DNA of 64,000 nt from Chloranthus sessilifolius (lineage: Eukaryota > Streptophyta > Magnoliopsida > Chloranthales > Chloranthaceae). Positions 2,664 through 56,700 of the stretch are shown piece by piece. A program made the translations under genes and the position numbers. Location of the stretch: assembly GCA_021018995.1 (NCBI GenBank), contig CM037589.1:60710101-60774100 (forward strand), read 5' to 3'. The stretch's first letter is position 1, and each line of letters starts with the position of its first letter. Below the pieces are notes generated by a model. It was not told where the DNA came from and did no database searches. It worked only from the letters and a program-made list of their open reading frames with translations.

Positions 2664-2882
2664 TTACTCGGAGCTGGAGTCGTAGAAATCGCTCGGGCAA
2701 GGAGTCATAACCTCGGATTCCAGCACTTGCACCACCCTATGCATGGTGGGCCGATCCTCGGGGCCTGATGACACACACTGGATTGCGACCGACAGGAGAG
2801 CGTCCAAGCTCTCCGTCTGCACTCCCTCACAGTGGGGGTCGATGATTTCTCTTTGCCTGTCCTCTACTACCAAGAAATTCAA
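2664..2882 (-). CDS. FEI1: FEI-like exon 13: kinase C-terminus and stop
   Basis: It encodes the last 72 aa, from [20 protein letters not shown] through [20 protein letters not shown] to DFYDSSSE and TAA. Acceptor TTTGCAG. The ending matches the conserved FEI C-terminus. No convincing nearby polyadenylation signal could be chosen. Confidence 0.95.
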
Positions 2883-8800: not shown

Positions 8801-11800
8801 ATCCGATGGTGATTGATGGCGCCGTAGAAAGAGAATCACAATTTTATCTTCCTATCACATATATATAGATTTCTTAATCATGGTTTTAAAACTCGCCGAG
8901 TCGACTCGGAACTCGGGCAAGTCGACTCGACCCAGTTTCGGGTCGACTCGGCTATAAACTCAAAATGGGGTGAAACTCGATCGACTCGCCGAGTCGACTC
9001 AAAAACTCGACTGAGTTTGTCATCTCGGTGAGTCAACTTAAAGCTCTTTAAGTTATGGCTGGCGGGGGTTTAAACCAATTTTAAGGGCATACTTGTAAAT
9101 TAGCAAGTATGCCCCTTTTATATTTAAGGCTTTTAGGGCTTCAGCCCTCGTCTCCATAGAAACCCGACGATATCTCGTCTCCACATAAACCAGACGAGAA
9201 AAGAAAGAAAGAAGAAGAAGAAGAAGAAGAAAGAAGAAAGAAGAAGAAAGAAGAAAGAAAGAAGAAGCAGCCTTGAGCCGAGCAGAGCCTCTTCAGTAGT
9301 TCACTTCAGCAATTAAAAGGTGAGTATTTTTATTTTTTTAAAGAAAATATGTTTTTTTTTTATGCCAATTTTGTTTATGAAACTATTTAGGCACAATTTT
9401 ATGCTCTTTTATGCCAAAATCTTTTCCTTTATGCCAAAAAAAGCAGAAGTGAGTATAAGCTACATTTTTTAGGGTTTAGGGTTTAGGGTTTAGGGTTTAG
9501 GGAATTTGTGTTCTTTTTTTTTTTCCTACTTTATTACCCACAAATGCCCTAAAATTTCCTGAGATCTATTTTCTTTTTTTTTTGCCACAGCTGCCTTAAT
9601 AACCCGAGTCGGAGCGAGTCGAGTCAGACCGAGTTTCCGAGTTGACTCTACTCGGATGATTTTCGAGTTGAGTCGAGTTTCCGTGTTTTAAAACCATGAT
9701 CTTAATAGTTATCATGTTGCACATGTACACTCTAGGGGTTGTGTATAAAAACAAAAAAAAAAGAATAAAAAAGAGATTATATTGAAAAAAAAGGGATTGC
9801 AATTTTGAATTGAAAATCATATATTCCGGAGTGGTCATACGGACTAAGGTAGACATGGGAAAACTTGGGTTGTAGCGCACTAGAAAATTACAACTTAGTG
9901 CATGCACACCTGTGAGAGAGATGATGAGCGTCTCGGCTGGTCTAACTCCACAGATCCTTGCTCAGAAAGGACTATCACGATTCCAAAGCTTTGGGCTTGC
10001 GAGTGGTTTGTTGTCATTGCACTAACCTCTATGAGGTTGAGTGGGAGATGTTAGTTTTTGTGTAGCCTAGGGATCACTTATACAACCCCTAAAGTGTGCA
10101 TGTGCAACATGGTAGCTACTCACATATTTATGTATATGTGATAGGAAGAGTTTTTAATACACACTTATTGTGAGTTTTCTCTTTCCCTCTCTTCTCTACA
10201 AGCCTTAAACAAATAAAATTGTGATTATCTTCCTACCGTGCCATCAATCACCGTTGGATCCACATGACCTGAAGATCTCTGACTTCCTTTTCTAGTAGTT
10301 GCAAGTACAGACCGTCAAATCCTATCATCTCAGCTTTTATGAAGTCCAAGCTTGTAGAACCGGCTCGATCAAGTCTAACCGCTTCCGCGTGAGTAGGGAT
10401 GAAGATCCCAACAAGTTTGGCTTCATCCTCCTCTACCACCTGATCTACCACCACCAGGCCGGAACTCAAAAAAGGAGGGAAGAGCAGAGCGCTTAGAAGC
10501 ATCTATGGCCACATGCATAACCTGCCGTCTCCACTCTTCATGTAATAATAGAGCGAAGATAGTGCCAAGCGAGGGACATTCTTCATGTCAAAGAATACTA
10601 GTGTGAACACTTTCATACTTGGAATTAACCCTCTCAATATATCAAATACTTTCTTCCTTCCAATGTATGTTTTTTTTACGTACTATACACAAAAAATTTG
10701 CATAGAAAATAGACTCATTCACAAATAGATTGCAACAAATTTCTCCTTGCTAGGAGAGGGTTTTATTAATAATGTTGGACTTAACACTTCCAAGTATCGC
10801 CTTCAATTGCCCGTTAATTACCTCAATAATAAATACCTCTTTTTAAAAGGTACGAAATATTTACATCTCTAAAAATAAACAAAAAATCCTAGTTTTTAGA
10901 TCTTCTTCAGCATCATCTTCGCCTTTATCTTCAGCGTTAGTAGGCTAAGAGATAAATACTCAAAATGTTGTCTTCGTCTAAAACCCGCATCATGTGGAAT
11001 AAAGGACGACGGATATATGAAACTCTGCGCTGAAAGTCAGACCCGTCCGATTGATAGGCATGGAGGTGTATGGGTGCGAGGAGCTCATGGACGAATCTTA
11101 ATACAAGCTCTTGATGTCGAGGTTCGAAGATGATTTCGAACACTGGGTCCATGACTTCCCCTTTTGATAACTGACCATCAAATTCATTAGTATTCTTAAT
11201 CATAGGAGTATAGGACTAAATTCCTTAGAATTTGGACTTAGTTTTCATAATGGGCCTCGATCTGGGTTGTGCCCTTTACGAGCCCATTATGATTCAAACT
11301 TGAGTTTGAGAATTTCATATGGACTTTGGTGTTATTCCAGAATAATTGATTATGATTCGGGCCTTAAGCCTCATCATTTGGATGATTTGGGCCTTGGTCC
11401 AATATGGTCCTTTAGGGTCTTTTGATTTGATTTAGACCTTAGCTGATCATGATGAATCATCGCGTTAATTGCGCATTGAAATTGAACTGTGAGGGAAACC
11501 CCAATGACAGTAAGATTGATCATGGAGCGATTATGTTACGCGGAATGATGATACTTTGGTCATGATCGCATGAAGTAATAATCCTTTAATGTTGATCATG
11601 ATCATTTGAAATGGTGATCAATCGATGTTGATTGTAATCGCACAGAGCAATGAAGATCATGATCGCGCGTAACGACGATCGTGATCTTATTGAATGATGA
11701 TTTATAATCTTGGATATAGACACTTGAACTAGTTCGTAATCACCACCCCAAATATACGATAACTTAACCTCAATTTTGTAATTACAACCCACTTATATAA

Positions 11801-35700: not shown

Positions 35701-38700
35701 CTTGCGCTCTTCGATGTCTCACGAGTGACTTTGGTTGTTGCTCGAGCGACTTTGGCCGAAAATTTGGCCTTATTCCTGAAGCATTCTTGTTCTTCCGAAT
35801 TTGATCTGCTTCTTTTCTTTCTTTTCTTCCAATTCTTTAATTATGACGCTTTTGATCTTGATACCCCCATCAATTCTCCCCCGGTGGGAGGACTCATCTC
35901 CGATGAGTTATAGGGCTCATGTACGGTATGCTTTGGTTGCCTCGCTCCCGGCTTGCTCTTCCATGCTGTGAGATGTTTTTGCTGCTTACCCGCCTTGGTA
36001 CTAAAGTTTGGATATTCTAGATCATCCTCATTCAACCTTTTCTCATATGGCTCAAGTAGGGTACGGGTTATGAAGTGATTAAAATGGTTTGGCTAGTTTG
36101 GTCGAGTGGCAAGGAATGGATCCAAGGACATTGTGGCAGGGTTTGAAATAGGCATAAGATATTCCACCATAACTATCGGCATAATGCCCTTGCCTAAAGG
36201 AAATTTTAGACTTCTATCATGACCATTTTTTGAGGTCGTGAGAACTTCCACATGCTTGGGACTATCATAAATCAATTGTCGTAATTAAATTCATTAAACA
36301 ACTTTGATGTATTAGCGACATTCTACATATTTTCATCGTTCAATAAAATTTGTTTGGTAATCCCATGCAAGCTGGAATGCTGACACGTTCCTACCGACTC
36401 TAATGACCCATGCAATATGGACACACTATCAACCAAAAACTCCAAGGACTCGATTCCACCAACAACAGGGACTCATGCACAACTGACTCTACGGACACTA
36501 ATAAATCGTGTGTGGGTTGCGTGGGTGACTCGGTTGACTCACTTGTGAGTGACTCAATATCACTATTCACAAGGGAAATAGAAGCCTCTTTAACACAAAC
36601 TAGACTCTCATAAGCTTCTTCTATCTCCTCTTCACTCAACACGATACTGGGGTCATACACTTCCTCTTCTATTTTCAATTTTTTCTGCTCCTTATTTTCT
36701 TCAGCTTTAATGAATAAAATTTGAACGGGAAATTTCGTGAGACATTAATAGGCAAAATGTCCGAACCCTTGACACTTAAGGCAATCAGGACACTTATCTG
36801 TCTTGGATTTAAAATTCTGTAAAAGGTGACGGTATGTTAAAGGAACATATTTTTCAATAAGTTTCATCTTCATGTCCTCCCATGTGGAGGTGCGTTTACT
36901 CCGAAGAGATTCAATGTGGTACTCTATTTTGGCGTTACCCTCCAACTTTGCTTTCGCGAGCCTAACTTTGTACTCATTCGGTACATCATACCAGTCAAAA
37001 TATTCCTATATACTAGACAGCCACACTACAAAGGATTTAGGGCTCATCCATCCCTCAAAATTTGGAACCTCATTCCGAATAGATTTTAGAAACCTCTCGG
37101 CAAGGTCGTACTTAGGTTCACGATGATGAGGATACCCCCTAACTCTAATCTCATCACGAGTTTTGGGATTTTGCTAAGAATTTGGACTCGATCGCCACAA
37201 TTCAGATTTGATGTCCCTAAGATATCGGCAATCTCAGTCATATCCATGGTGATCACGGCTACTAGTACGGGTTCTAAGATGACATGCAATTATGACCCAA
37301 CAAAGAATGAAGAATTTTATTAAACACAAAATGAGCATGCAATTGAAGACACAAATGACAAAAATTAACCGACATCGACAACCCTAAGCTAGAAACTGTG
37401 CTCTGATACCAAACAAACGCGGGACAAAACCCTAAACTACGTGAATGATTATGAAGTGATGAATTTGCCGAAATTAGACTAGATTAATTGAGCAATAAAT
37501 CTGAAAATAACGTGAATACCTTAGGGTTTCGTAGTTTTCCGTTTGGAGGATCGCGTTTGGGTTCGGGTAGGGCCCAGTCCATGCCTAGATCAGTTAGCCT
37601 CGCGGAAGAGATATCCTAAAGATAGAACTCTAGTCGCTTCCAGATTAGGGCTCGCTCGTAGATCAATGATGGAATTGTCGATTCGATCTAGGGTTCTTGG
37701 GACTAGGGTTTATAATTTTGGGGTATTTAAAAGCTTGATGGCTGAATTTAGGGTTTATGGGATTGGATCGAATTAATGGCCCAAATTGGTTAAATGGTTA
37801 TGATGAGATTTAGGGTTAGGTTTTAGGAGATAATACGAGGTGATGGCTGAAATAGGTTGGTGGGGATTAGCACGCAGTTAAAAGATAAATCAAAGAGATA
37901 GATAGAGTCGAGTCCACGTGAGCCATTAGTGTCACTTGATTCACTAGTGTCGATAGAGCCCACTACATGTGAGTCGTTAACATCACATGCACATGAGAGT
38001 ATCGAGTCCCTTGATACACATACACATCATAGTCTCGAGCTGCATACCGCTTCACATTTCGGGTCTTATTGTGAGTTAAGTTTTGAGTCTCATTCCGCAT
38101 TACATGCCGAATTTACGCTTAAAATTAATTTGTGCAATGAAACTCTCAAATTATCGATGCATGTACCTAAGGCTTTTAGGGAATTCCAATTAAATAATCA
38201 TGCGATGGTTCATATTGGATCTGAACGATTCCCATCGGGAGTCGCAAAGAAGCTCAAGGCCTATGGCACTGGACTTTTTGTGATTGTGGCAAGGAGTGGT
38301 CCTAATGTATACAATCTTGAGCTCCCTTTAGATACAAGGATTAGCTCAACGTTCACTGTGGAGGACCTAGTTCTTTCTCTGGGCTCAACACCACCTCCTT
38401 GCAATCCTTTTCAAACGCCCCCTATTCACAATCTCATCCCAACTTTACAGTCGATACCCCTTCCCTCCCCAAGCAGGCAGAGAAAAGAGGTAATTGAGGA
38501 AATTTTAGATGATTATGTGGCATTCACCTGCGGCGGAGAGTTTCTAGTTTATGAGATGAAGAGGGTTGGTGAGTCGACTACCGAGAGTGCATGGGCCAAT
38601 CATGAGAGAGTTCATCGCTTGAGTTTCTGTATTTTCGACCGATATCGCGATCACATTTCATCGGTGATGAAGACTTTCGAGTTCGGGAGAGTTGATGAGA

Positions 38701-41700
38701 AGCTTCAAAAGTATTTGGTAGAGTGGGTTGGCGAGCCGAGTTACTTGGTTCATCAATGAGAGCTTTACAGTGTGCGCTCTGATACAATCGACCGGAATGA
38801 TATTCATACGTTACCAGATGCCGAGATTGTTTGGGTTAGTTGAAGGAAGTTCCACCAATCGGTCCCCTATACACTTGATCAGTACTACACACGTGTTTCA
38901 TCGGTGATGAAACATTTTCAGTCCGGGAGAATTGAGAGGACGCCGACATTGTGGACATCGGTTATGGACCGTATCGAGTGTACCGACATCGGAAGAAGCG
39001 AAACGACAGCCAGAACCAAGCCTAAAGAAGGATACAAGCTCAAAGCTCACGGCCCAAGATCGCTCGAGCGAGAGTGCTCCATAATAAGGGCCAAACTTTC
39101 GGCTAAAAGTCGCTCAAGCGACTTTTGGTCTCACTCGAGCGAGATGTTGAAGACGGCACACAGAAAATTCTCTGGATTAAGTCGCTCGAGTGAGCTTCAC
39201 TTGTCGCTCGAGCGAGATATGTCGAATTGTGTAAATTTTAGTTCTTTTCTCTATTTTTCCTTTGGATTCGAATGTCAATTTTAGGATAGTTTCGTAATAT
39301 TTATGTTTTAGGGTTATTCTGCTTTGAGGCAACCTATATAAGGTCTCTAAACAAACATTGTAAGGAGTTGACTGATTATTGAATGAAAAGCTATTGCTTG
39401 TGTGTGCTTGAAATGAGCCTCCACGAAGAGTGATTCTTCGTTTCTCAAGGAGGGTTTGGTGTGAAGCCCACAATCTATCATCTTTTCTATCTACCTCTTT
39501 GATTTATCTTTTAATTGCGTGCTAATCCCCACCAACCTCTTTCAGCCATCACCTCATATTGTCTCCCAAAATCTAACCCTAAATCTCATCACAATCATTT
39601 AACCAATTTGGACCATTAATTTGATCCGATCCCATAAAACCTAAATTCAGCCATCAAGCTTTTAAATACCCCAAAATTATAAGCCCTAGCCTTCATCTAA
39701 ACCATTGAATCGATTTGTTCCCAAGAACCCTAAATCGAACCGGCGATTCCATCGTTGATCTACGAGCAAGCCCTAATCTGGAAGTGGCTAGAGTTCAATC
39801 TCTAGGATCTCCCTTCCACGAGGCTAACGGATCTAGTGCATGGACTGGACCCTACCCGAACCCAAACGCGATCCTCCAAACGAAAAACTCCCTAAAGTAT
39901 GCACGTTATTTTCAAATTTATTGCTCAACTAATCTAGTTTAATTTCGGTAAATTCATCACTTCATAGTCATTCATGTAGTTTAGGGTTTTGTCCTGCGTC
40001 ACAATATTGCAAAGAATAGAAGGTAGGAATATTCTCCAACAGCTTTAGAAGCATCTCCAGGTCTCAGCTAGTGCATGATGCTCTAGTGTCAGTAGGAACT
40101 ACTCACCTAAAGTCCACTCCCTGATGGGTGAAGCTGGAGCTGGAGGGGGGTGAGTGAAGCTGTCCAGGTCTCAGCTAGTGCATGATGCTCTAGTGTCAGT
40201 AGGAACTACTCACCTAAAGTCCACTCCCTGATGGGTGAAGCTGGAGCTGGAGGGGGGTGAGTGGACTTCAATGGAAGCCTCCTCCCAAGTTAAAAAGGGT
40301 TCAGGGATCAGCTGTATAGTGTTTTTAACAAGACTACTTTCTCTCTCTTTTTCTAGCCTAACTAGAACCACAACATCTAAAGTTGAGGCTCTCGCTCTTC
40401 TCACAGATTCAAGCTACAGGCATACTTTCCAAACATAGTCACAAAAGTCTCCGACTTTTTCAAAAAATCTGAAAAAGTCGGCGACTTGCAGTCATCCCAA
40501 CTACATTGCCGATAAATCAGCCGAGTCGGCGACTCAGCCAATTAAGCGGTGATGTTTGTGAGGTGGTTCGATTTTTTTTCTGCTTTTTTCGTTTTGCCTA
40601 TTTTGTACAATTTTGCTCATTAAAACAATTATTATTAACTTGAAATATATTATGATGTATTTTTTATATTTTAAATTTCTTTATTTTTCCCAATTTTTCC
40701 GACTTAGACCGATTTTGACCGTTTATTGCTGATTTTTCCCAACTTAGAGCGTCGCTGATTTATTACCGACTCCCGACTTTGTGACTATGTTTCCAAAGAT
40801 TTTCTGGAGTGAGAGACTCCCAGAACACCCATGAGATGGCAATTTTCCACCATGGCATTTTTTCCAAATTTTCCAGAAAGTTCACCATTGTCTTTTCCTG
40901 AAGAAGGTACAGATAGTTTCTCAGGTCCACAATGAGGCCAACCTTGAAGCAGAAAAACATTGAATCATGGTGCTACTTGTAATTCTATCGTGAGTTGGGC
41001 GTGTATGCCCCAAATGTCGAACATATTTATGTTTTCCTCCATCTTTTAATAAGAGATTTTTAGGTTAATTATGATAGGAAAAAAGAAATCTGCTTAAATT
41101 CCCAGATTAGAGATGCAATGAGTCAGTAAGTGATGGTCTGAGCCAACTTTAACAATCTATAATTGTAATATGATAAGAGCATACAATAAGATGGCGAATC
41201 ACCATTGACGAACCAAGTGTGAACCATAACAAACTGCCACTCTCCACTATAGTAGGAAAACAAGCTGAAACTGCAAATCCATAAATTTAAGCAAATGGAT
41301 AGCTAAAGCATGATCAGTAAGCAGCATTCTTATACCACTTTCCATTGTAAAATAATCTATTAGTTTCTAAAAGACCTAATGCCTACTAGTGTAAGTGAAA
41401 AAGGCAACTAGCAATATGGTACTTACGAATTTTCAGTAAATTTCATGAGTGCACCCTCAGATGGTATCATCCCGATCAGAAAATTGGTTGAGACATTGCT
41501 TCAAAAAATTGAAAAGAAATTCAATTTGTAGTTGGAATTTCAGGGTAACTTTAAGTCAACAGAAGAACTAACATGTTGAGAAGAACTATGGCACTTACAA
41601 TGTTGAAAGTTTGGTTAAGTTTGCAAGAGATGAAGGTATAGATCCACTTAGAGAATTGCTGGAGATGTCCCTGTGGAGAGACAAATTGGCATGATGAGAT

Positions 41701-44700
41701 ATTAGAAAAAACTGACTCTATTTGACATTGAATCCTTGCACCATATTAAATAGAAAGCTTAAAATAACTGATAATATATCTTAAATGAAATGCAACTGAA
41801 CCATTCTCCTGAGTTGATAATGCGGGTCCCTCTTATGGAAGTATTGCCGAATGGGACAATGAACCGTTAACAATGTTTGACACTCCTACATTTAGAGGTG
41901 GAGGGATTGAAGGAAGAGGAGCTTCAAAATCCTACCAATCACTACAAGATGATATGGATTATACTATTTCTACCTTTGGGGGATTTAGTTTGCAAAATAC
42001 CGAAGATTCAACAACCAGTAACCCATGCCCAATCCCTCAACCAACCTACCCCCAACATGAAGACTTAGTTGGTCAAATTTTTGGAGGACCGACATTTCCA
42101 TATTACACTAACCCACACCCTATGTTAATGTCTCAATTTGAAGGGGAGACATAAGATCATGGGTATCAATATGGTCAACATTATAGGCAAAGTAGGCGCA
42201 CTAATGATGATGACGACGATGACGATGAACCACCAAGGAATTCAATGTGGCTTTAATTTAAGTTTTTTACTTACGATATGTTACGATCAATAGTCTACTA
42301 TGGTGGCTTTAATGTTATATTCATATACAATGTTAAGTTGAGAGGTTTTATATTTCTAAGGCGATAACATTCCCAAAGATGCATCAAAGAAGCCTTAAAT
42401 TATTTTTTAAAAATTTGAAAAAATTTGAAAACCATTAATATATTTTTCCAGAATTTTTGGATATTTTTGGGATTTAAAAAAAAAAATTGTACCAAGCCGA
42501 AACATTCAATGTACCAGCGATACATTGAATGTATCGGCCAATACGCCGGTACGTATCATCCAGAGACTTGGAAGATAAATCCCAGATTTCCGAGATTTTG
42601 ATTTATGCTCCTAACCGAAAATGCAATGTACAAAAGAAGCACGTGGGTAGAAATCACAGTCGCAAAGTAGGGAGTCGGCAATAAATCGGCAAGGGTCTAA
42701 GTCGGGAAAAATTGGCAAAAATCGGAAAAAAATCAGGGAAAATAAAGAAATTCAAAAAAATATATAAAGTATATCATAATATATTTCAAGTAAAAAATAC
42801 TGATATTAATGAACAAAATAGTACAAAACCTAAAGGTTTTTATGAAAAAACTGAACAAAATAGTCCAAAACCTGAATTTTTTTTCCCCTGAAGTATAAGT
42901 GAAAGAAAAAAGAAAAGGAAACATCACCAACTAACCGGCCCGAATATTGACTTGGCCGATTAATCGGCGATAAAGTCAGGATGACTGCAAGTTGCCAACT
43001 TTTTCCGATTTTTTGAAAAAGTTGGAGATTTCTGTGACTATACTAGAAATAATTCCAACAAATAGACCAGTAAAAAGAAACATTTAAGTTGCCAATAACA
43101 AGCAAAAAATGCCACCTCTAGCTGCATATTCAAATTATGCTCTAATATCGACAAAATATATATAATGCATAATTGAATTGAACAATACTAATGCATATTT
43201 TGTAAATTAATTTTATGCTGCAGATGCACAAGACAACCATATATAGCTTTCTGAATTAAAAATCTGCGACAACATTTATTCTGGATATAATAACTCACAG
43301 TGTCTGCAGTTCGGAAAGGTTTCCAAATTCGGCAGGAATCACTCCACTTATATAGTTACCTTGCAAATATCTGCAAAACAAGAGTTGGGGAAAACTTACT
43401 TCTGCATTATAGAAGAAGCAGATCTTCCAGTGACTACCAGTAAAATGTGAGAGAGAAATGCCAAGTGGAATGAAAATAAGCTCAAGCTTTTAGAGATGAA
43501 GTGGAGTCCTCCAATCACGGCACTAAACAGTTCATCACAAATATCTCAGTGCATTGAGATTTTCATGCAAATGACAGCCAGCTATAAACCAAACCTTCTG
43601 CAGAGAAGTCCTTCATCATTAGCAATGTACACTTACTATATGTTTGATCAATAAAGGCAACAAAGCCAAACAAAATGCTCATAGACACACGGCAACCACA
43701 TAGATTCCTTCTAGAGGCCATAACACTGCACCTAGGCCACCATTTCACCATTTAATTTGTGGATTACATTAGTAACAAGATCAGAGATATTATTAGTATG
43801 AGTAAATTGTTTTATGACAGTTTTCTTATTTTAGACAACTTTTTAATTATAGGCACTTTCATAGTTTAAATTACTTTTCCGTTCCTAAATTTTATGAAGG
43901 TTAGGGCATAGGGACTCTTTATAAATGCATGTTACAAATTTTGTGAAGTAAAATTTTTGGAATTGAAAAATAAGAACTTTACTTATATTGGGTCATTCAT
44001 GATGCAACTCTTGTAGGAAGTGTTAATATATTTCCTCCATGAAAATTTATGATAAAGATACCAACACCTGCACAGATATCTATGTAGTGTAGTGTCATTC
44101 AAACATTGATAATAGTGTTCAAACTAGTGTGCCTTTCAGAACCAGTGTGTTCTCTCGCTCCTGCTGTACAGGTTAGCCCCAGTAGCCAGCCTTAGGGCTG
44201 CAAAATGATTAGAGACCACCCCAATGCTAAGGTTCTCTGCAGTCTAAACCTGGTTCCACATTACATTAGGCTAGGGAGGGTGGGTGATAATATGATGGGG
44301 ACGCCGCCTAGAGGACCTGGGTTTCAAGCCGTACCAAGTGTACCGATGAAAGAAAAAGCGGCGGAGGAACCATGGAGCCTCAAGATTCACCGAGGAAAGG
44401 CCCTAGAGATCAGCCCATGAGGCACAAAAAGTCATCAGGCGACGGACATCCAAAGGCTTTGGACGGACGTCCGGAATTAGAGGGTCGCATTGTTAATGCG
44501 CGACGGACGTTCGGGGCATCACGGACGTTCGTGGATAGGCAACAGACGTCCGGGGTGCTCAGGACAGACGTTTGTGGAAATCTCCGCCCTGTGACTTAAG
44601 TGGCGTGTTTTGTCCTTTTTGTCCGGATTTTATTGCTTTGTGTCTAATTATAAGTTAGCACTTAGGGTAATTTCGTACTTTGTCATTTTAGGGATTATTC

Positions 44701-47700
44701 TCTTTGTAGTTACTATAAATTATACTTTTGTAAGCCATTTTTGGCACTTGTTGATTTAATGAAAATATATTTTGTATTTGGCTTGAGATGAGCTTAAAGA
44801 GAGTCTTCTTCCCCATGTGATTTTGGTGTGAGGCCCATGTTACTTTGATCTTCTCCTTTAATCCTTGCTCTTGCTTGATCTTCTTTTCTCTTTAATCTTT
44901 TGCATTCAATCTTCTCCCTTTCTATTGATCGTTCTCTCCCTTTCTATTGATCGTTCTAATCCCCAAACCCTAGATCTGGAATACCCTCAATGTTCATCCT
45001 CGTGGATCGAATCCGACCCTACACGTCGATCCACGATCGTTGTTGAGCTTGAGCGTATTCAACTCGTGTCATTGATCGCTTCCATTCAAAGCCCTAGCGA
45101 GGAACTCCCGATTCCACGAAGAACTACGATCCAACGTCCGACCTAGACGAAGCGAGAGTTCTCTCTCGGATCACCTCTTCCTCCATCCTAATAGATCTCG
45201 CACGTCGAATTGGACCCTATGCGAACCGAACATGGTCACCTAAGCGAAATCCCACGAAACCCAAGGTATAGCTTTAATTTGTGATTTAAGTGGTCAACTT
45301 AATTAGTTTAATTTTGATAAATTAGCATATCATGGGCATTCACGGATCTTAGGGTTGTTGTCCCGCGTTAGTTTTGATATCAAAGCTTAGGTTCTAGGTT
45401 AGGGCATATGTGTGTCATTTCGCTTTCGTTTGATTTTATTTCATTTGTGTGCACAACGTGTGTTTAATAAAAATTTTCACTCATTTGTGTATCATTTTAA
45501 CTTCAGTAAATTTTAAGTTCATTTATGTTCATCAAGTGTGCACATCTTGTGTTCAACAAAAGTCCTTATTCATGTTGGTTCACATGCGTAAGTCATTCCG
45601 ATGTCATTTGTGTCCTCGTTCGTGTGCACGTCATGTGTTTGTTAAAATTCATCTTTCATTGTTAGTTCATATTTGCATGACATATTGAATTTTGCACTTT
45701 ATTTCATTTGTGTGTTCGTAGTGTACACGCCTAGTGTTTGACAAAAGTCCTTATTCATTTTGGTTCACATGTGTATGTCATTCTGACGTTGTTTGTGTAG
45801 TCACATTTGTGTGTTCATTTATATGCGCATCTTGTGTTTGTTAAAATTACTCACTTATTGCATGGTCGCATTTGTGTGTTCATTTGTATGCACATCTCGT
45901 GTTTGATAAAATTGCTCATTCACTTGTGGGTCATAGTTGTTTGTTCGTTATAGAACCAGTGTTTAGTATGTCGTGATCACCATGGGTACGAGTGAGATTA
46001 CCGCTGTTCTTAGGAGCATCCATGCCACGATGATCGTGATGAATGAGAGGGAACTAGCCAAACAAGGAAACCGTTACACTCCAAATCCTAGGCGAAGTCC
46101 TGAAAGTCGTGATGACATTAGACTTAAGAGACACACCTATCATTGTAAACCCAAACATGATCTTGATAGAAAATCTCTAAGGTCTAGTCAAGTAGAAGTC
46201 CCGGATTTCAAGGGTATGGCGAGCCCTAACACCTTCGTGGAATGATTGTCTAGCATAGAAGAGTACTTTGTGTCTTATGATGTGTTGGATGGGTGTAAGG
46301 TCGATTTCGCCAAAACGAGGTTAGTGGGCCGCACTATAACCGATTAGAATGATGGGGAGTTTTGATGCAAGATAGCTCAATGTAAGCCCGTCACACGATG
46401 GGAGGACATGAAGGAGCGACTTACTGAGAAGTATGTTCTTTTCACGCACCGCCACCTCCTACGGTGTTTGAACGCTAAAATGGATAAGTGTCGTGGTTTT
46501 CGCAAGTTTGAGTCTAGGAGCGCCTACACTAAAAAGAGCTTTAATTTCGGGGTTCAACCATTGAAACCCGTGAGTACTCCTACGAATCCCCAAATTGATA
46601 ACGGAAAAGGAGCGAGCAATGACATCCCCAAAACTAATGGTCGCAACAAATGTTACAAGTGTCATGGATTTGAACACTTTGCATATCAATGCCCCACAAA
46701 ATTTCCCGCTCAAAATTTATTGATGAAAAGAGAGCGTTCTAAGCAGCTGGAAAATGTGAATGTGGGAGAGGATGTGTATGACCTTAGTACCGTGGTGAGT
46801 AAAGAGGAAATAGAGGAAATCGAAGAAAGTCTAGATTGCATTGAGGAGATTTTTATTTTCCTTGTGAGTAGTGATGTGGAGTCGCCCACACATGAGCCAA
46901 CTAAGTCACCCACACACAATTCGACCGAGTCATTTACACATGATTTGTTAGTGTCCATGGAGTCAGTTGAACACGAGTCCTTGTTGTTTGTAGAGTCAAG
47001 TGAACACGAGTCTGGTTGAACCGAGTACACACGAACCGATCAAGTCACTTACCCATCAGTCATTGGAGTCCGTTGAGTCGAGTCCATATGAGCAATTAGT
47101 GTCACCTGATTCGATCACACATGAGTCACTAGTGTTGATAGAGTCCACTACATGTGAGTCGTTAGCGTCGCATGCACATGAGAATATCGAGTCCATAGAT
47201 ACACATACACATCATAGTCTCGAGTTGCATACCGCTTCACATTTTGAGTCTTGTTATGAATCAAGTTTTGAGTCTCATTCCACATTGCATGCCGAAATTA
47301 CGCTTAAAATTAATTAGTGCAATGTAGATTACAAATTATGAGTGGATTTGCCTGTGAGCTTCAAGGAAATCCAAATAAGTGGCCATGAATTAGTTCGGGT
47401 TAGGCCTGAACGATTCCCATCGGGGATCACGAAGAAGTCTCAAACCCGCGTTGCCGGATCTTTTAGGATGGTGGCAAGGAGTAGACCTAAGGTTTATGTG
47501 CCTGAGCTACCTCAAGGTATGGGAGTTAGTTCAACACTCAATGTAGAAGAACTAATTCCTCATCTAAGCTCAACCCCACTTCCTAAAACTCCTTTTTAAA
47601 CGTCCTTTCTTTGCGCACCAATCCGATCCCACAAGCCTTATCTTTTCTTTCTCCGAGCAAGATGAGTAGCGAGGTCATCGAGAAGATTTCGGATGATTTG

Positions 47701-50700
47701 GTGGTCTTCACCCGCGACAGAGAGTTTCTGGTTTATGAGATAAAGATGGTTGGTAAGTCAACCTCCAAGAGTGCATGGGCCAATCATGAAAGAGTTGAAC
47801 GCTTGAGTTCATGTATTTCCGACCGATATCACGATCACACTTCATCGGTGGTGAAGACTTTCAAGTACGGGAGTGCTGATGGGAAACTTCATAAATATTT
47901 AGTAGAGTGGGTTGACAAGTCGGGTTGTTGGGTAGTCGAGACGAGGTTTACAGCGTGCGCCCCGACACAATCAACCCAGGTGAGGATCATACGACACCGA
48001 TTGTTTGGGCTAGTTGTGAGGAGTTCCACCGTTTGGGACCAGTACTACATGCGGATCTCATTGGAGATGAAACCTTTTGGGTCTGAGGGAATTGATGGGG
48101 ACGCCAACACCGACCGATGCCACGAGCCAGTTTCATCGGTGATGAAACATTTTGGGTATGGGAGAATTGATGGGGGCGCCGCCTAGAGGACCTAGGTTTC
48201 ATGCCATACCAGGTGCACCAACAAAAGAAGAAGCGGCGGAGGAACCATGGAGCCTCAAGATCCACCGAGGAAAAGCCCTAGAGATCAGCCCATGAGGCAT
48301 AAAAAGTCATCAGGCGACGAAAGTCCGAAGGCTTTGGACTGATGTTCGGAATTAGAGAGTCGCACTGTTAATGTGTGACCGACGTTCGTGGGTTTCACGG
48401 ACATTCGTGGATAGGCGACGGACGTCCATGGTACCCAGGACAGGCGTCTGTGAAAATCTCCGCCCTGCGACTTAAGTGACGTGTTTTGTCCTCTTTGTCC
48501 GGATTTTATTGCTTTTGTGTCTAATTGTAAGTAATCACTTAGGATAATTTCGTACTTTGTCATTTTAGGGATTATTCCCTTTGTAGTTACTATAAAGTAT
48601 ACTTTTGTAAGCCATTTTTGACACTTGTTGATTTAATGAAAATATGCTTTGCATTTAGCTTGAGATGAGCTTGAAGAGAGAATCTTCTTCCTCATGTGGG
48701 TTTGGTGTGAGGCCAAGGGTGTGAGGCCCATGTTACTTTGATCTTCTCCTTTAATCCTTGCTCTTGCTTGATCTTCTTTTCTCTTTAATCTTTTGCATTC
48801 AATCTTCTCCCTTTCTATTGATCGTTCTAATTCCCAAACCCTAGATCTAGAATGTCTTCAATGTTCATCCTCGTGGATCAAATCCGACCCTACTCGTAGA
48901 TCCACAACCGTTGTTGGGCTTGAGCGTATTCAACTCGTGTCATTGATCACTTCCGTTCAAAGCCCTAGCGAGGAACTCCCGATTCCACGAAGAATTACGA
49001 TCCAACGCCCGATCTAGATGAAGCAAGAGTTCTATCTCTCAGATCGCCTCTTCCGCCATCCTAACGGATCTCGCGCGTCGGATTGGACCCTACACGAATC
49101 GAACATTGTCACCTAAGCGAAATCCCGCGAAACCCAAGGTATCACTTTAATTTGTGATTTAATTGGTCAAATTAATTAGTTTAATTTCGGCAAATTAGCA
49201 TATCATGGGCATTCACGGATCTTAGGGTCGTTGTCCCGTGTCATAATAGCTCCTCCACATCCCAAGTGTGCCGCCCTAATAGGCGTGCAACACTAAGTAA
49301 ACCCAGCCAACCTACATTACTTACTAATGGTGGATAATCATCTTCTTAGAGGTACTAAATACAACTCCATGAATGAGTAAAATGGAGGTTGCGTTAATGA
49401 TAAAGATCTCCAAGGAAACCACAAAAAGAACAGGCGGAAGGATCTGAGTTAATTTTGCTTTAATTTCATTCACTTGGCTTTTGCACTGAATTACTTACCC
49501 TTATGGAAAAACATCTCTCTCAATGCTGAAGACAACAGAGAAGCTGGAACAATTCAATGACTATAAAAGAGCCAAAATCCCTGGAAACTCACTGAACTAC
49601 ATGATTGACAGATAATCCCAAATGACTAATTGCGAATGAGATATATCAAACTTGGTGAGTTTATCAGTAACCTGATTTGCTTCAAGTGTATACTAGAAAC
49701 CTCTCAATCCACATTTGCGATAAAAAGTCAAACATATTAAAAAATGGTAGGAAATCCTTAAACAGAGAAGAGGATACCTTATATTTCTAATTATGTGGCT
49801 TAGCCGTGTAGCACAATGGAAGGTTGAAAATATTGCAACCCCAAGGTCGCAGGTTCAAGCCCAGCTTACTTATATCAAAAAAAGAATCTAATTATGTCAA
49901 TACAGACTTCATCCATTAAGAATGAAGATCAGAGAGTCATGTTGAAATAAGGGAAAATAACAAAGAGATGGAAAAGATACTTTAGAGAGTTGTTAGGTGT
50001 GGAGTATGCGAGAGAAAGAAACCAACTGGGAGAACCAAATCAAGAGATGATTAACAGCATAAGTAAAAACAGCCTCAGTAATGATGCAGAAAAGGAAAGC
50101 ATCACGACCGTATCGTGTACCTATGGAGATATGAATTTTAATGAGTGGAAGTGCGCTTTGTTTGATCGACTAGATTGTTCAACATGATACTCAGGACAAG
50201 AAAATTTTCAAGAAAATTTAGAAAAAGCATTGTCGTCCATTTTTAAAAGAATTAAGGGAATATTCAAAATTGTACCAACCATAGAGTATTAAACTTCATG
50301 TTATGGAACTCAGTGAGAGAGCAAAGGAAGTGGGTCTAAGACAAATCAAATATTTTTTAGACCCAATTTATTTCCATGGTAGGAAGATCAACATTTGACA
50401 TTATTATCTTAATGATAAAATACAAGCAAAAACTTGATGAAAAGTTTGCATATGGTTATTATTGATTTGGACAAGACCGAGGATAGGGTGCCAAGTGTCA
50501 TGAGCGCAACGCCAGTGCGGCACCCTACTGACTGCACATTGAGGCCAACCTAGCCCACCATCAGCTCTGATATCACTCGTCCTGTGATGGGAACCTACAA
50601 TGCACGATCCTCTTGCAACCCATGGCACCTCCATCACCACAATTAACCATCGAAATGTACCCATCGTGTGTGTCTAGCACCTTCATGCCCCACTCAGCCT

Positions 50701-53700
50701 GCTCAGCATTTATTATGTGCCCCATGCACTTGTCCCTCACATTCATCAGTCACATGCCAGGTCGTCATGTCATCCACACCAAGGATTAAAATCTTGGTAT
50801 AATCCTCAATATCAGCCTGTGCCATTACCAAGACGTACCGCATCATTGTCTCATGTATTGTCTAAGGTACCCAACAATACATAGCTATAAGGACATGTAT
50901 TGGGAAATACTCAAGATGATACAATGTCTTGGATGGCTCTAATATCGAGACATCGCTCGACACGTCTTGGTATCATCAGAGATTTTGGAAATAAAATCTA
51001 TACTGACATTCCTCGCCCACATACCAAACCATGCGTGTGGCCCTCTCAACCAGCACAGGTCTTGCCCTCAGGATTGACCTCTGTGCATTGTTGCACATAG
51101 CACATGCGCATTCGAACCTTTCTTTGAGTACCACACCAGAATGCACTCTAGGCACCGTCGTAGGACAAACCTTACAGCCCTCAAGAGACCATCAATGTGC
51201 CTTCTAGCCAAACTAAGGCCCTTTGTGGCTCCCCTCTACATATTAGTTTCTTGGAAACTAGCAGTACCTAAAACTTAGTAATTTGACACTCTTTTGTAAG
51301 CCACCAAGCAAGTTATTTGGGCCACATGATGCGCTCATGTGCCCACCACAGCACCTCCTTGTGCACTCACCCAAGCCATGCAACATCAAAGACCATGTCA
51401 AGGCCTCGTGTCACACAGGCGACTTAGCCATTGTCACAAAGCTCCATGCAACCTGAGCAGTTAGCTAGCCCACCACTTAGCCCAAGTCTTCCTCTTCACC
51501 ACACGTGCACAAAACCTAGCCTCAAGGCATGCCTCATGCCTCCTCACTAGCTCAAACCACGCGTCTCCATGCACCAATGGAAACCACCTGTGATACAAAG
51601 CAGGAACTAGTGTCAGAATTCTGTTTGGAGGACGACTAAGTTCCCTAATGGAGTTGAGTTGCATCAACGGTTTGTTTTGTTTGTTTTGAGTACTCCTTGT
51701 GTGTGCATTGGTTATGGATGAATTGATACCCGAAATACATAAGGTTTCATGGTGTATGTTTGTTAATGACACGGTACTAATTGACCAGACAAGAAAATAA
51801 CTATATAATAAGTTGAGCTGTGAAGAAAGGCTTGCAAGTTTAAGGGGGTCTAAAAATTAGCCGAAAAAAACGAAAATATAAGAAGGGCGAGGTTATGGAA
51901 CACGAGGTATGGGTGGTTTGGTGAAAAAAGAAAAACATTTAGTGCCACAATGTGATAAATATTAGTATCTCGGCTCAATTATACAACCAAACCATGGGTT
52001 TCAAGACAACTCTTACAGGATCTATGCCAAGTGAGTAAAGTGGAAAGGAGAGTGATGTGTTGTGAGATCAGTGATTCCATTTCGATTAAAAGGGTGTTTT
52101 AACAAGGTTCCTATAAGACCTGCATTACATTATGATGAAGAATGTTATCTTACAAAGAAGTAACAAGAAGATCGAGTACACCTGTACACGTTGCTGAGAT
52201 ACATATGCTAAGGCGGATGTACGTACAAGAAAAAATAATATCAAGGATGAAAGTTTAGGGGTGTCTAGGTAAAAAATCAATGAATGTCGTTTAAGACAGC
52301 TTGGTTATGTTTATAGGAGACCCAAAACAAACCCCTGTATGAAGGATTTTATGGTACAAGAACTAGTAGAAAGGAAAGACCAATAAAAAAAAGGAATGTT
52401 GAGAAGTGACAAATGATTGCGGTGTGACAAAATTTATCCCTAAACATAAATAAATGGAGAAATACGATTCACAAAGTCGACCGTACATAGGAGGATCGCA
52501 GTGATGATAATGGTGGCGATTCATTTTGGCCATTTTCCTTGAAGGGCAAAAGAATTAACTACTTTTCACTTTTTCAAAGCACCAACACCTATTTTTTCAT
52601 ATCATCTAAGTCTCCCTAGGAACCTTGCGACTTCTTAGGCCGACAAAAAGGATTTCATATAATGAAATTATTTAAAGCAATAAATTAGCTATGGTTTGCG
52701 TGTTGAACTGTCCAAAACTTTAAATAAATCTCAAATCTTTCATATAAAAGAAGAAATAGCAATGGCCATTTAGAGATTCATTTTTGAGTGAGCTGTCCAA
52801 AGAGTTAAAAACATGACTCAAAACCAATCAAGTTTAGTATACTCTAAATGACATTATCATCCACATTGATACAAAAATCATATTCTTCAAGAGATTGACA
52901 ATCCGAAGATAGTTCAACTTTTTTTTTTGAAAGAAAAAAAGGTTTAAGGATTCAAACCTTGCGATAAATAGGCTTCTATAAAACTAAGAACAATAATTTC
53001 AACCACAGGCTTTTATCGGAGGCTCTCTAAAACATCGTTAAAAGCTCCTAGCATCAAAATGATTCCTTGCGCGAAGGGTTATTGCATTAAGGATTTCCTT
53101 GCCTAAAATCGGTTGGCATACACATAGTTCTTCTACTTACTGAATCCTAACCACAAATGCACATTAGTGATGAATGCATCGACGTGAATATAACGACTCT
53201 CCAAATCAATCACACATCAATGAATCTAATCTGATTATAAAAGAGCATTCTTGAAGCAAATATAATTACTTTTGCAATGCATCTATTCATCAAATGACCT
53301 ATCTCCAGAAGGCATCACAACAAGCAATTGGGTTATATAACAAAATTCAATTCACAGACCACATCCAGATACACATATTGACAATGCTGAGATGGGTATA
53401 CCTATTTTCTATTTATCGGCAATACGTAATTTATTAATACTGAGATCAGTTACACTTTGGTTAACCAGATTGTTAAAGAAAGTACTGAAAACAGGAAAAA
53501 TGCCCAAGGAACGGAGAAGAGCACTGTGGTCCATTTTTATAAGTATAAAACAGATATGCATAATTGAGCCAACTATCAAAGTATTGAATTTGTAGTCATA
53601 CTATCAAAACCTTGGGAGAGAGTAGGGCAGTAGCGTCTACGATTAGAATCCAATATTACAGAAAACTAGTTTAGATTTCTGCCAGAAAGATCAACACTTG

Positions 53701-56700
53701 AAGTCATTTTTTTTATTGAGGCAACTTACGGAAAAATTTAGAGAGACGATGAAAATTTTTATATGTAGTTTTTATCCATTTTTATAAGTATAAAACGGAT
53801 ATGCATAATTGAGCCAACTATCAAAGTATTGAATTTGTAGTCATACTATCAAAACCTTGGGAGAGAGTAGGGCAGTAGCGTCTACGATTAGAATTCAATA
53901 TTCCAGAAAACTAGTTTAGATTTCTGCCAGAAAGATCAACACTTGAAGTCATTTTTTTTATTGAGGCAACTTACGGAAAAATATAGAGAGATGATGAAAA
54001 TTTTTATATGTAGTTTTTATCCATTTTTGTAAGTATAAAACGGACATGCATAATTGAGCCAACTATCAAAGTATTGAACTTGTAGTCATACTATCAAAAC
54101 CTTAGGAGAGAGTAGGGGAGTAGCGTCTACAATTAGAATCCAATATTACAGAAAACTAGTTTAGGTTTCTGCCAGAAAGATCAACAATTGAAGTCATTTT
54201 TTTTATTGAGGCAACTTACGGAAAAATATAGAGAGACGATGAAAATTTTTATATGTAGTTTTTATCGATTTAGAGAGAGCATATGATACAGTGTTGATGT
54301 AGATAATCTAGTGGACACTAAGGAGGAAATGCGTTCTAAATGACAATAGTAAGATTATCCAAGACATGTATGAATAAGCAATAACTAGTGTTAGAACCTG
54401 AGTGTAGAGTGGTGATCGAGTTCTCTGTTTGCAGAACGGTCTACTTTGATTCCATATTTGATTGCATTGACAAATGAATTGAAATAAAAAATGCAAGATG
54501 TTGTTTAATGACGGAGATTTTGTTGATGATTTACTAACTAGCTAGACAAGAAAGAAATTAAATTATGTGGGACCTACAGAAAAAATAAATTAAAGGGTTC
54601 GCAAATTGGTGTACGTGCATAACAAAGATGAAATACATGGGATGCAAGTGTGGCGAACACAAGAGGAAGGAGAATGATGGGGACATCAGACTCAAGCAAC
54701 CGCCCATAACATATCGGAGGCGAAAGAAGAAAAGTAATTTATCGAAAGAAGAGTAACTTTTAATCTGTCACTTTTATGTTTAGCCTATTTTGAAGTATCA
54801 AACGAAGTCGGATTGATGCGAAATTGATCATATTTGAAAGCTTATCGAAGTAGCTTTCCAACAAGCTAAAAAACGTGCAATTCCGACAAGTATTGAAGAA
54901 GTTATAGTCAGTTTTCAAAAGCTGCACAGAAAGTGACGAATTTCAAGAATCCTAATTGAATTAAGATTAGTCACTTTTATTATTTTATTTTAGAAAATAA
55001 GAGTTGTTTCTTTTATTAGAAATAGGATTAGTTTCCTTATTGTTTTAGGACTTTATTGTTTTAGTAGAATTAAGATATTTCTTTTATTTGAATTAGGAAT
55101 TAGAGTTATACTAGGATTTCTAATTTTATGCATTGGTTAGCTTATTTAAATGTTTGTAAACACTTTTATTATATCCTTTTGGTTAATGCAAATTGCTTAT
55201 GCAAAATTGAGAGTTCTAAACTTTCGTGAGGGTGTGATTCTCTCAAAACGGAGAGCGATTCTTCAATTCTCGCTTACGGTTTGGTACGAGGCCAACTCTT
55301 CTTCCATCTCTATCTTCTTTAGATCTACGGTTTGCGTAAGTAGCATAACCCTAGTTATTTTATTTATTTCATAAAATCCAAAATCAACCTATTTGTTCAT
55401 CATAAATCATTACTAGCCTTTTAATTTTGTTCGGTATCGAGAGAACCCGCTTCCGAGTTCGTTTGACTCCCTAAAACTATCGGAGATCTAGCAGTTCATA
55501 AGAACCCTAATCTTCTAGATCCGCGATAGGGAACACACACTAAAGTAACGCTATTTTGGGCCGGAATTAAATCACCTAACTGAATTTCTATAATTTTCTG
55601 TGGTAATTTGTTATGAGAAATTGTTATTTTTTAATTGATTAAATTAATTTTAATCCTAGTCTCAGCCCTAACATTGCATTTAGTAAGTTCCTGCATAAGA
55701 GAATTTGACCATAATGGTTTTAGAAAATCATTTAGTACCATAATGTAATAGATTCATTATCTAGACACAACTATTCAAGCGAACAGTGGGTTTGAGGGCG
55801 ATATCTCAAATATCATCAGTGTAGAGTGGGCGTAGTGGGGCATGCAAGTGATGTATTGCACAAATAATGTCACTTTGATTGAAGGGATGCTTTTATAAGG
55901 TGCGAATAATGAATCTCACTTTGATTGAAGGGATGTTTTTATTAGGAAATGGTAAGACCTGAATTATGGTGTGGTGAAGTGTTGAGCTACAAAGAAGCAA
56001 CAACGAGACATAGTATATGTAATTGACATGCATATGCTACAGTTAGTGATATATGCACAAGACGGAGGTTAAGGCTGTGTTTGGGATTTCTCTTTGGATG
56101 CGAAGAGCAGCTCTCTGCTCTGGCGCAGAGCACTTTAGTATGGGACTGTGGTTGGTTGAAAGTGCTCTTAGCTCTTTCGGAGAGTCAAAGAACTGAATTT
56201 GTATTTTTTTTTAAAAGAGCAATTTAAACCTGCTCTTTTAAGTGGGCTGCTCATGCTCTTAGCTAGTTTGGAGAGTCAAAGAGCTGAATTTGTATCTCTT
56301 TAAAAGATCAATTTAAACCTACTCTTTTAAGTGGGCTGCTATTCGCCTCCAAAGAGCAATCCCAAACACAGCCTACGTATACTATTGCCTCAATAAAAGA
56401 GGATAAACAAATAATTCAGAGCTTGTTTAAACTTCAAAAAAATTCGAAAGAAAAAAATATTGAAGTGGCTCCCATCCTAGACCTCAAATGAAGCTACTAG
56501 CAAAACACAGATCACTTTTTCCCCAGTAAATAATAATGGCATAATTCTTATTAGAAAAATTGTATGACCACTTACATATCCCTTAACTCTGAGCAATTAC
56601 CCAACTGCGACGGAATTGCTCCATAGAAGTTGTTGTTATGAAGAGCTCTGCAACACAGGCATTATATACATGATAATCAAAAAGCACGTTTTCTGCTCAC

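Follow-up and report, generated by a model that had tools for sequence, protein, structure and literature searches.

A Pol-Less, Gag-Bearing Retrotransposon Lineage with Remnants of an Integrase End and Chromodomain in Chloranthus sessilifolius

Semiautonomous retrotransposons that carry Gag and are mobilized by a full sister element are already known in the form of TR-GAG, noaCRM, and Quinta-like elements, among which the TR-GAG elements reportedly go back to Chaparro et al. 2015. The published systems are compared here on the basis of the accessible text of the papers cited. TR-GAG elements are described in PMC5818461; RLG_Quinta is regarded as mobilized by the autonomous RLG_Cereba, with conserved ends of the long terminal repeats (LTRs) and a conserved primer site (PMC11302176); and the noaCRM elements of hop are more numerous than their autonomous form (PMC12371157). 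Here, we analyze an element at positions 44293-49243 of a 64,000-nucleotide window of the Chloranthus sessilifolius genome (assembly GCA_021018995.1, contig CM037589.1, positions 60,710,101 to 60,774,100 of the forward strand; positions are those of the window unless a locus is named). In structure this window element is a complete LTR retrotransposon, the 2.8-kb interior of which consists, in order, of a leader, Gag with a CCHC knuckle, an acidic stretch, an SxHES repeat linker, an integrase end, and chromodomain-derived sequence (table 1). We consider it likely that it belongs to a non-autonomous (NA), or semiautonomous, chromovirus lineage, which lost pol and was spread by the Gag-Pol of a pol-bearing family with repeated exchange of LTRs.

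One Junction in an Amplified Lineage

The preliminary description of this DNA had proposed an amplified lineage rather than a one-off deletion, to be checked by a genome search with the linker and chromodomain and by comparing the junction between copies. Searching the 2.17-Gb genome with window positions 37929-38759 gave 40 scored places on many contigs, each 85-100% identical to the query. Of these, 39 lie outside the window, and a set of 20 was retrieved for comparison. The linker is directly followed by the integrase end in all 20, and homology to the pol-bearing sister family begins at sister position 3214-3216 in 19 of these copies and at 3206 in L024; differing breakpoints were not found among them. 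An LTR pair surrounds the NA interior in 19 copies, and in L021 the pair lies upstream of the interior. A 22-base word spanning the junction occurs 1,523 times genome-wide with up to two mismatches, compared with 0 occurrences of the reversed word, and fits 23 of 24 NA copies as against none of nine pol-bearing copies; the probes missed the junction itself in L056 and L058, with the junction word listed beside both. As judged from these words, the NA lineage numbers well over a thousand copies, the window element among them. Candidate numbers from a first look (4,056 for linker and chromodomain, 3,060 for the LTR, 5,127 for reverse transcriptase [RT], and 4,714 for the sister integrase end and chromodomain) were not taken as copy numbers.

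Because the linker and chromodomain query is biased toward the NA form, a second sample was anchored on the LTR of the window element alone. This gave 48 matches. Ten loci were taken from them, six being high-ranking matches on their own and four having another LTR match within reach; together with the window element they make up 11 loci, of which nine are NA, one is pol-bearing (locus C13), and one (locus C10) showed nothing recognizable. Target-site duplications (TSDs) and LTRs were tabulated for 16 elements, the window element and 15 others: a perfect 5-bp TSD flanks the window element, L011, L012, L017, L020, L023, and L028, four of five bases agree in L025, L016 has a mismatch, and seven are unreadable.

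Could independent internal deletions of ordinary chromoviruses have come to resemble each other by chance? The measured copies are old (Kimura two-parameter distance [K2P] between paired LTRs of 0.061-0.107 in 14 of 15 NA pairs, the exception being L009) and contain stops and frameshifts, as random decay would have it. However, the same junction in 20 of 20 copies and in 1,523 words, a linker without a counterpart seen in sister copies, a Gag truncation common to all (no capsid C-terminal domain [CTD] in 23 interiors), a chromodomain duplication common to copies, and TSDs of the copies' own make this extremely improbable. An amplified lineage is strongly supported.

Domain Content, the Pol-Bearing Sister Family, and Probable Exchange of LTRs

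The structural completeness claimed in the preliminary description was borne out in the LTR pair, the TSD TAATA, the primer-site region, and the purine-rich tract, as were a Gag with a CCHC knuckle and an SxHES linker running straight into an integrase C-terminal segment. The two LTRs, about 1.08 kb each, are 91% identical over 1,054 aligned bases (K2P 0.097). We take the primer site of the window element to be complementary to initiator methionine tRNA; among the copies listed, its counterpart is TGGTATCAAAGC or a near form in eight of nine NA copies besides the window element and in both that bear pol. The knuckle matches zf-CCHC_3 and, at E 0.023, zf-CCHC, both under the curated Pfam cut-off. 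PF24626 matches window positions 37929-38756 as well as L010 and L014, and the segment at 47285-47644 was assigned by comparison. Stops and frameshifts interrupt the coding region of the window element; they lie in Gag, at the linker, and in the stretch from integrase end to chromodomain-derived sequence.

For a census, 23 NA interiors (those of L013 and L021 starting at the linker) were compared with pieces of the sister proteins at E 1e-3, with positive controls matched for capsid, knuckle, RNase H, integrase core, and integrase CTD. The capsid N-terminal domain (NTD) was found in 19 interiors, the knuckle in 16, and the integrase CTD in all 23; the capsid CTD, RNase H, and the integrase core were found in none. 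The protease region and RT likewise gave no match in any of the 23, these two pieces being without a positive control. This agrees, for the window element and 22 further interiors, with the earlier claim that protease, RT, RNase H, and integrase core are missing.

The preliminary description had also called for a partner with matching LTRs, and such a pol-bearing sister family was found in L029 and C13. L029 is the downstream stretch of a pol-bearing element that hosts an NA copy: in L020 (oriented positions 3837-8811), an NA element with the TSD ATCTT is nested in the 5' LTR of this sister. L029 encodes a knuckle, RT, an integrase zinc domain, an SH3 domain, and a canonical chromodomain, with Pfam matches above cut-off to RVT_1 (61 bits), Integrase_H2C2 (45 bits), SH3_Tf2-1 (50 bits), and Chromo (36 bits) and a match to rve below cut-off (24 bits). 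Tested on L029, the sister has the makeup of a chromovirus, that is, a Ty3/gypsy pol with integrase followed by a chromodomain; the NA element lacks a match to the integrase core and to RT in all 23 interiors (RT without a positive control) and does not by itself fit this definition. The L029 copy is decayed, and "autonomous" here denotes the pol-bearing type. The pol-bearing sister copy has a full-type Gag, as does C13, the LTRs of which are 78-89% identical to those of the window element. Eight further integrase end-chromodomain stretches (L033-L040) and C13 each show one chromodomain by eye, with several translations broken. NA and pol-bearing elements share LTR ends and primer site, and the NA LTRs track the pol-bearing ones, as would be looked for in a partner pair. 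The ends, TGATG or TGACG ... TCA, are similar to the CRM ends in the accessible text of PMC3059260. In L053 (G000:C5:7200848-7201348), an inverted stretch beyond the 3' LTR of an NA copy is 71% identical to the sister protease region; by its similarity this is another element of the same family adjoining the NA copy. A word for pol-bearing copies, derived from L029 and the copies closest to it (it fits eight of nine), gave 392 matches, a depth not comparable with that of the NA word. Two places on contig C5 (10084495 and 10084560; 16027815 and 16027880) each have a pair of these words at a spacing of 65 bases, possibly through local duplication.

The LTR tree comprised 19 NA and seven pol-bearing rows, one of the latter being the 5' LTR of L029's own element, and omitted L014, L015, L048, L049, L052, and the second and third NA copies of the window. 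L048 and L049 are 3' stretches from pol-bearing copies; the match of L048 was confined to part of an NA-type LTR, and L049 had none. In this tree, NA and pol-bearing LTRs are interleaved, the starred branches requiring at least five changes, and a single NA clade is rejected (approximately unbiased [AU] test, p-AU 1.3e-6). Starred pairs unite the window element with C13, L019 with L050, L025 with L047, and L026 with L046; an unstarred fork (90/71) joins L009 and L016 to L029 and L045 within a starred mixed set of seven. The integrase-end tree comprised 27 NA and 10 pol-bearing rows, without L042, L056, L058, and the third window copy, and unites 21 NA rows in one clade (100/99). The discordance between the two trees fits mobilization in trans with repeated LTR exchange; a similar discordance in wheat Angela is interpreted as partner switching (PMC9744471).

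L009 (oriented positions 4913-8538) has LTRs that are 72% alike (K2P 0.36), its 3' LTR being 84% identical to a pol-bearing LTR, and is probably an inter-element recombinant. LTR distances of two pol-bearing copies, taken over parts of the LTR, are 0.060 and 0.063. The window element would be about 3.7 million years old at a rate of 1.3e-8 substitutions per site per year (PMC5818461) and about 8 million at 6.1e-9 (PMC12371157), rates that may not be those of the host.

The Encoded Protein and the Proposed History

Knuckle and linker could both be placed in 17 copies, and in 14 of these they lie in the same frame. The capsid NTD is in frame with the knuckle in 10 of 17 copies and out of frame with it in seven, five of them by one and the same shift. 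L016 and L026 have a single open frame from inside the capsid NTD via the knuckle into the linker, and in L010 the frame from the linker into the tail is open for 524 codons.

The chromodomain of the preliminary description stands insofar as chromodomain-derived sequence is present in the NA tails; it is degenerate, partly triplicated, and without a Pfam Chromo match. None was found at E up to 1 in window positions 37929-38756 and 47611-48183, or at E up to 5 in the tails of L010, L011, and L014, so that the Pfam model matches the pol-bearing copy and none of five NA tails. A profile built from four sister chromodomains and run on eight NA tails other than that of the window element recovers two to three tandem units in each, which in the five aligned tails are laid out as a full unit, then a front part, then a back part. 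Units in these five score 7.4-46.9 bits, compared with a maximum of 6.8 bits when the L010 tail was shuffled 1,000 times, and the weakest second units (L011, L022) are barely above chance. The YLVKW core of the sister has become YEMKR-like in unit 1. In predicted structures, mean confidence (pLDDT) is 33.5 for the NA chromodomain tail (10 rows) and 59 for the sister chromodomain control, which is all-helical (4 rows), both of them too low to be informative.

Constraint was expressed as dN/dS over a null that preserves the base, the CG/CHG context, and the type of change, with a codon bootstrap; it should be noted that changes after insertion make up part of every difference. The null alone gives dN/dS of 0.61-0.74 for all pairs, and a raw value below 1 was rejected as a sign of selection. 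Relative to the null, dN/dS is 0.70 in the N part of Gag (0.56-0.90; 18 rows) and 0.75 in the linker (0.64-0.88; 23 rows), compared with 1.03 in the NA integrase end (0.83-1.30), 0.89 in chromodomain unit 1 (0.70-1.16), and 1.05 in units 2-3 (0.77-1.44; 24 rows in each of the three). The test of the tail is of limited power, since for the sister, too, neither value lies clearly below 1 (integrase end 0.70, 0.50-1.00; chromodomain 0.75, 0.51-1.13; nine rows each). Thus, of the dN/dS comparisons that had been suggested, that on Gag shows constraint and that on the chromodomain none detectable at low power: Gag and linker are constrained, and the integrase end and chromodomain units look neutral within this power. 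Linker indels common to several copies are in-frame in 10 cases and frameshifting in one, as against 7 and 22 for unique indels (Fisher p 2e-4). Stop codons common to copies were rejected as inherited: they lie mostly at CGA, CAG, CGG, CAA, and TGG codons and are likelier to reflect recurrent C-to-T or G-to-A change.

These values bear on what, if anything, the protein does. One view is that of an element resembling a large retrotransposon derivative (LARD), in which cis sequences alone matter and the coding signal was inherited from the pol-bearing ancestor. It agrees with integrase-end and chromodomain regions that evolve as the neutral null and with the interrupted frame seen inside Gag in 7 of 17 copies, but the constraint on Gag and linker was measured between NA copies, and that on the linker arose after the split, because the linker has no counterpart seen in pol-bearing copies. 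LARDs and terminal-repeat retrotransposons in miniature (TRIMs) are defined by having no coding capacity, and the NA element has Gag and linker frames with constraint; we regard this view as a minority possibility to be taken seriously. A second view holds that the mini-Gag, without the C-terminal half of the capsid, acts in trans, either as a packaging helper or by poisoning particles so as to limit the partner. In its favor, capsid NTD and knuckle are kept (19 and 16 of 23) and the CTD is gone, the N part of Gag is constrained, and a Gag-derived inhibitor comparable in principle, p22, exists in Ty1 (PMC4599808, PMC8458377). Yet in 7 of 17 copies the frame is interrupted between NTD and knuckle, which tells against such a product, and this role, read from sequence, seems unlikely. 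A single fusion protein of capsid NTD, knuckle, linker, integrase CTD, and chromodomain remnants might instead join the particles of the partner and tether NA RNA or cDNA to the integrase of that partner or to chromatin. If so, this would be a parasitic element with an adaptor of its own, made from both ends of the parent polyprotein, but we think this quite unlikely.

The preliminary description went further and had a Gag-chromodomain protein steer trans-mobilized particles to chosen chromatin. That old copies keep linker, integrase end, and chromodomain in an open frame, of 524 codons in L010 and 285 in the window copy, and that the common indels of the linker are mostly in-frame would suit such a role, as would a difference in position between NA and pol-bearing words on contig C1 (Kolmogorov-Smirnov [KS] p 0.005), an exploratory comparison of listed places on two contigs; on the other, C2, there is no such difference (KS p 0.60). 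The chromodomain units, however, are without detectable constraint (0.89, confidence interval [CI] 0.70-1.16; 1.05, CI 0.77-1.44), by a test that is weak in that the sister control (0.75, CI 0.51-1.13) is not clearly below 1; five tails have no Pfam Chromo match, and the YLVKW core is lost in unit 1; Gag lacks the C-terminal half of the capsid; and L015, L021, L025, and L026 have in common a 1-base deletion between integrase end and chromodomain, in a C run that makes its inheritance uncertain. Steering is the weakest part of that first reading, is unsupported by these data, and must be considered highly unlikely. Separately, among the places listed, exact NA junction words are absent from 64-170 Mb of C1, an interval that contains pol-bearing words, although three scored NA places lie within it.

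We therefore return to a lineage that lost pol and was spread by its sister family. Its starting point would be a pol-bearing Ty3/gypsy chromovirus that lost the region from protease through the integrase core together with the C-terminal half of the capsid in Gag. The repeat linker joins Gag to the integrase CTD, and the chromodomain, as comparison shows, degenerated and was partly duplicated. NA RNA would be transcribed from LTRs resembling those of the pol-bearing family and be packaged, copied, and integrated by the Gag-Pol of that family, a mechanism that would leave the 5-bp duplications observed. LTRs appear to have been swapped repeatedly with pol-bearing subfamilies, probably by template switching. 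To judge from its constraint, the mini-Gag/linker protein was probably made and useful at the source; the tail of integrase end and chromodomain is largely kept in frame and may be dispensable.

Several points weigh against this account. Mobilization by the sister family is something that we infer from sequence. Both samples favor the NA form, the 20 copies having been chosen by linker and chromodomain similarity and the LTR sample ranked by an NA LTR. The protease region and the second integrase-core piece of L029 had no Pfam match. The codon bootstrap leaves the relatedness of copies in place, some of the in-frame linker indels may have arisen by slippage of 33-base units, frameshifts are common to four copies in the integrase end and to two in units 2-3, and an inherited frame break inside Gag is possible. 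The best integrase-end tree groups six window-like NA rows with the pol-bearing C13 (91/91), and 6% of bootstrap trees hold all NA rows together, so that two NA origins, or exchange of the 3' end as well, are possible. A single NA clade is not rejected for this tree (p-AU 0.18), and since both NA groups have the same linker, the same junction, no capsid CTD, and, by eye, the repeated chromodomain tail, we favor one NA origin with later exchange.

Table 1. Features of the window element and of the two other NA copies in the window.
Feature	Position	Strand	Remark
TSD, 5' copy, TAATA	44288..44292		Read directly; identical to 49244-49248
5' LTR (TGATGGGG...)	44293..45370	+	91% identity with 3' LTR
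Primer-binding site region, TGATATCAAAGC	45375..45386	+	
Gag: N-terminal part and capsid NTD, without capsid C-terminal half	45982..46500	+	
CCHC zinc knuckle	46645..46695	+	zf-CCHC_3, E 1.6e-4
Acidic stretch and SxHES repeat linker	46768..47284	+	Units of about 11 amino acids, by eye
Integrase C-terminal (SH3_Tf2-1-like) segment	47285..47644	+	Common junction at 47285
Degenerate chromodomain unit 1	47671..47886	+	Placed by comparison with profile matches in other copies
Partial chromodomain-derived units 2 and 3	47887..48105	+	Placed by comparison with profile matches in other copies
Purine-rich tract before 3' LTR	48154..48167	+	
3' LTR	48168..49243	+	
TSD, 3' copy, TAATA	49244..49248		
Second NA copy, 5'-truncated: linker, integrase end, chromodomain units	37902..39119	+	Open frame 37902-38759
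3' LTR of second NA copy	39094..40001	+	
Third NA copy: 5' LTR part	37417..37906	-	
Third NA copy: leader, Gag, linker start	36448..37378	-	

The second and third NA copies are two different truncated elements that lie head to head on opposite strands. The intact 276-codon frame reported earlier at 37929-38759 is real and extends to 285 codons from stop to stop. The recurrence of Gag and linker noted at 36400-37289 is present, but on the minus strand and with its own LTR (37906-37417), as a separate element. Two identical 101-base repeats, 107 bases apart, lie just 3' of the 3' LTR of the second copy (40056-40263). Elsewhere in the window, a repeat of about 245 bases occurs in three head-to-tail copies with 96-98% identity (53530-54271), and an open frame on the minus strand at 2664-3116 resembles, by eye, the end of a plant receptor kinase.

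Comparison with Known Systems

The lineage offers a large natural comparison, in which one family occurs with and without pol, its LTRs are interleaved, and one can measure what becomes of each part of the protein once pol is lost. A parasite, it seems, retains the capsid NTD, the knuckle, and a new linker and drops the capsid CTD and the chromodomain, which bears on what a semiautonomous element contributes to particles. A non-autonomous element with a Gag-chromodomain fusion was not found in the literature searched, which left most subscription papers outside, and the accessible text of these sources did not show an integrase CTD with degenerate tandem chromodomain units, a new repeat linker, and a Gag without capsid CTD together.

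Like TR-GAG elements (PMC5818461), the NA lineage has LTRs, keeps Gag, lacks pol, and has related autonomous families. In contrast to these, an integrase CTD and degenerate chromodomain units follow Gag by way of the repeat linker, so that the NA element, with its LTR pair, Gag, and no pol, is not strictly Gag-only; nor does it have an intact full Gag, the capsid CTD being found in 0 of 23 interiors and in the control C13. The semiautonomous, Gag-bearing RLG_Sabrina SA and non-autonomous RLC_Angela of wheat are alike in kind, and in Angela the LTR tree is likewise discordant with that of the interior, which is read there as partner switching; they belong to other families, and the accessible text of PMC9744471 mentions no chromodomain remnant in them. 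RLG_Quinta, with its partner RLG_Cereba, has a Gag with an extra domain and no RT or integrase (PMC11302176); this domain is DUF1, of unknown function, whereas that of the NA lineage is a recognizable integrase CTD and chromodomain remnant, and Quinta is centromeric, whereas NA copies occur on many contigs. The noaCRM elements of hop also lack RT, RNase H, and integrase and share the primer site with their autonomous form (PMC12371157); there, an integrase with a targeting domain is found in autonomous copies only, whereas the NA lineage of Chloranthus retains a remnant.

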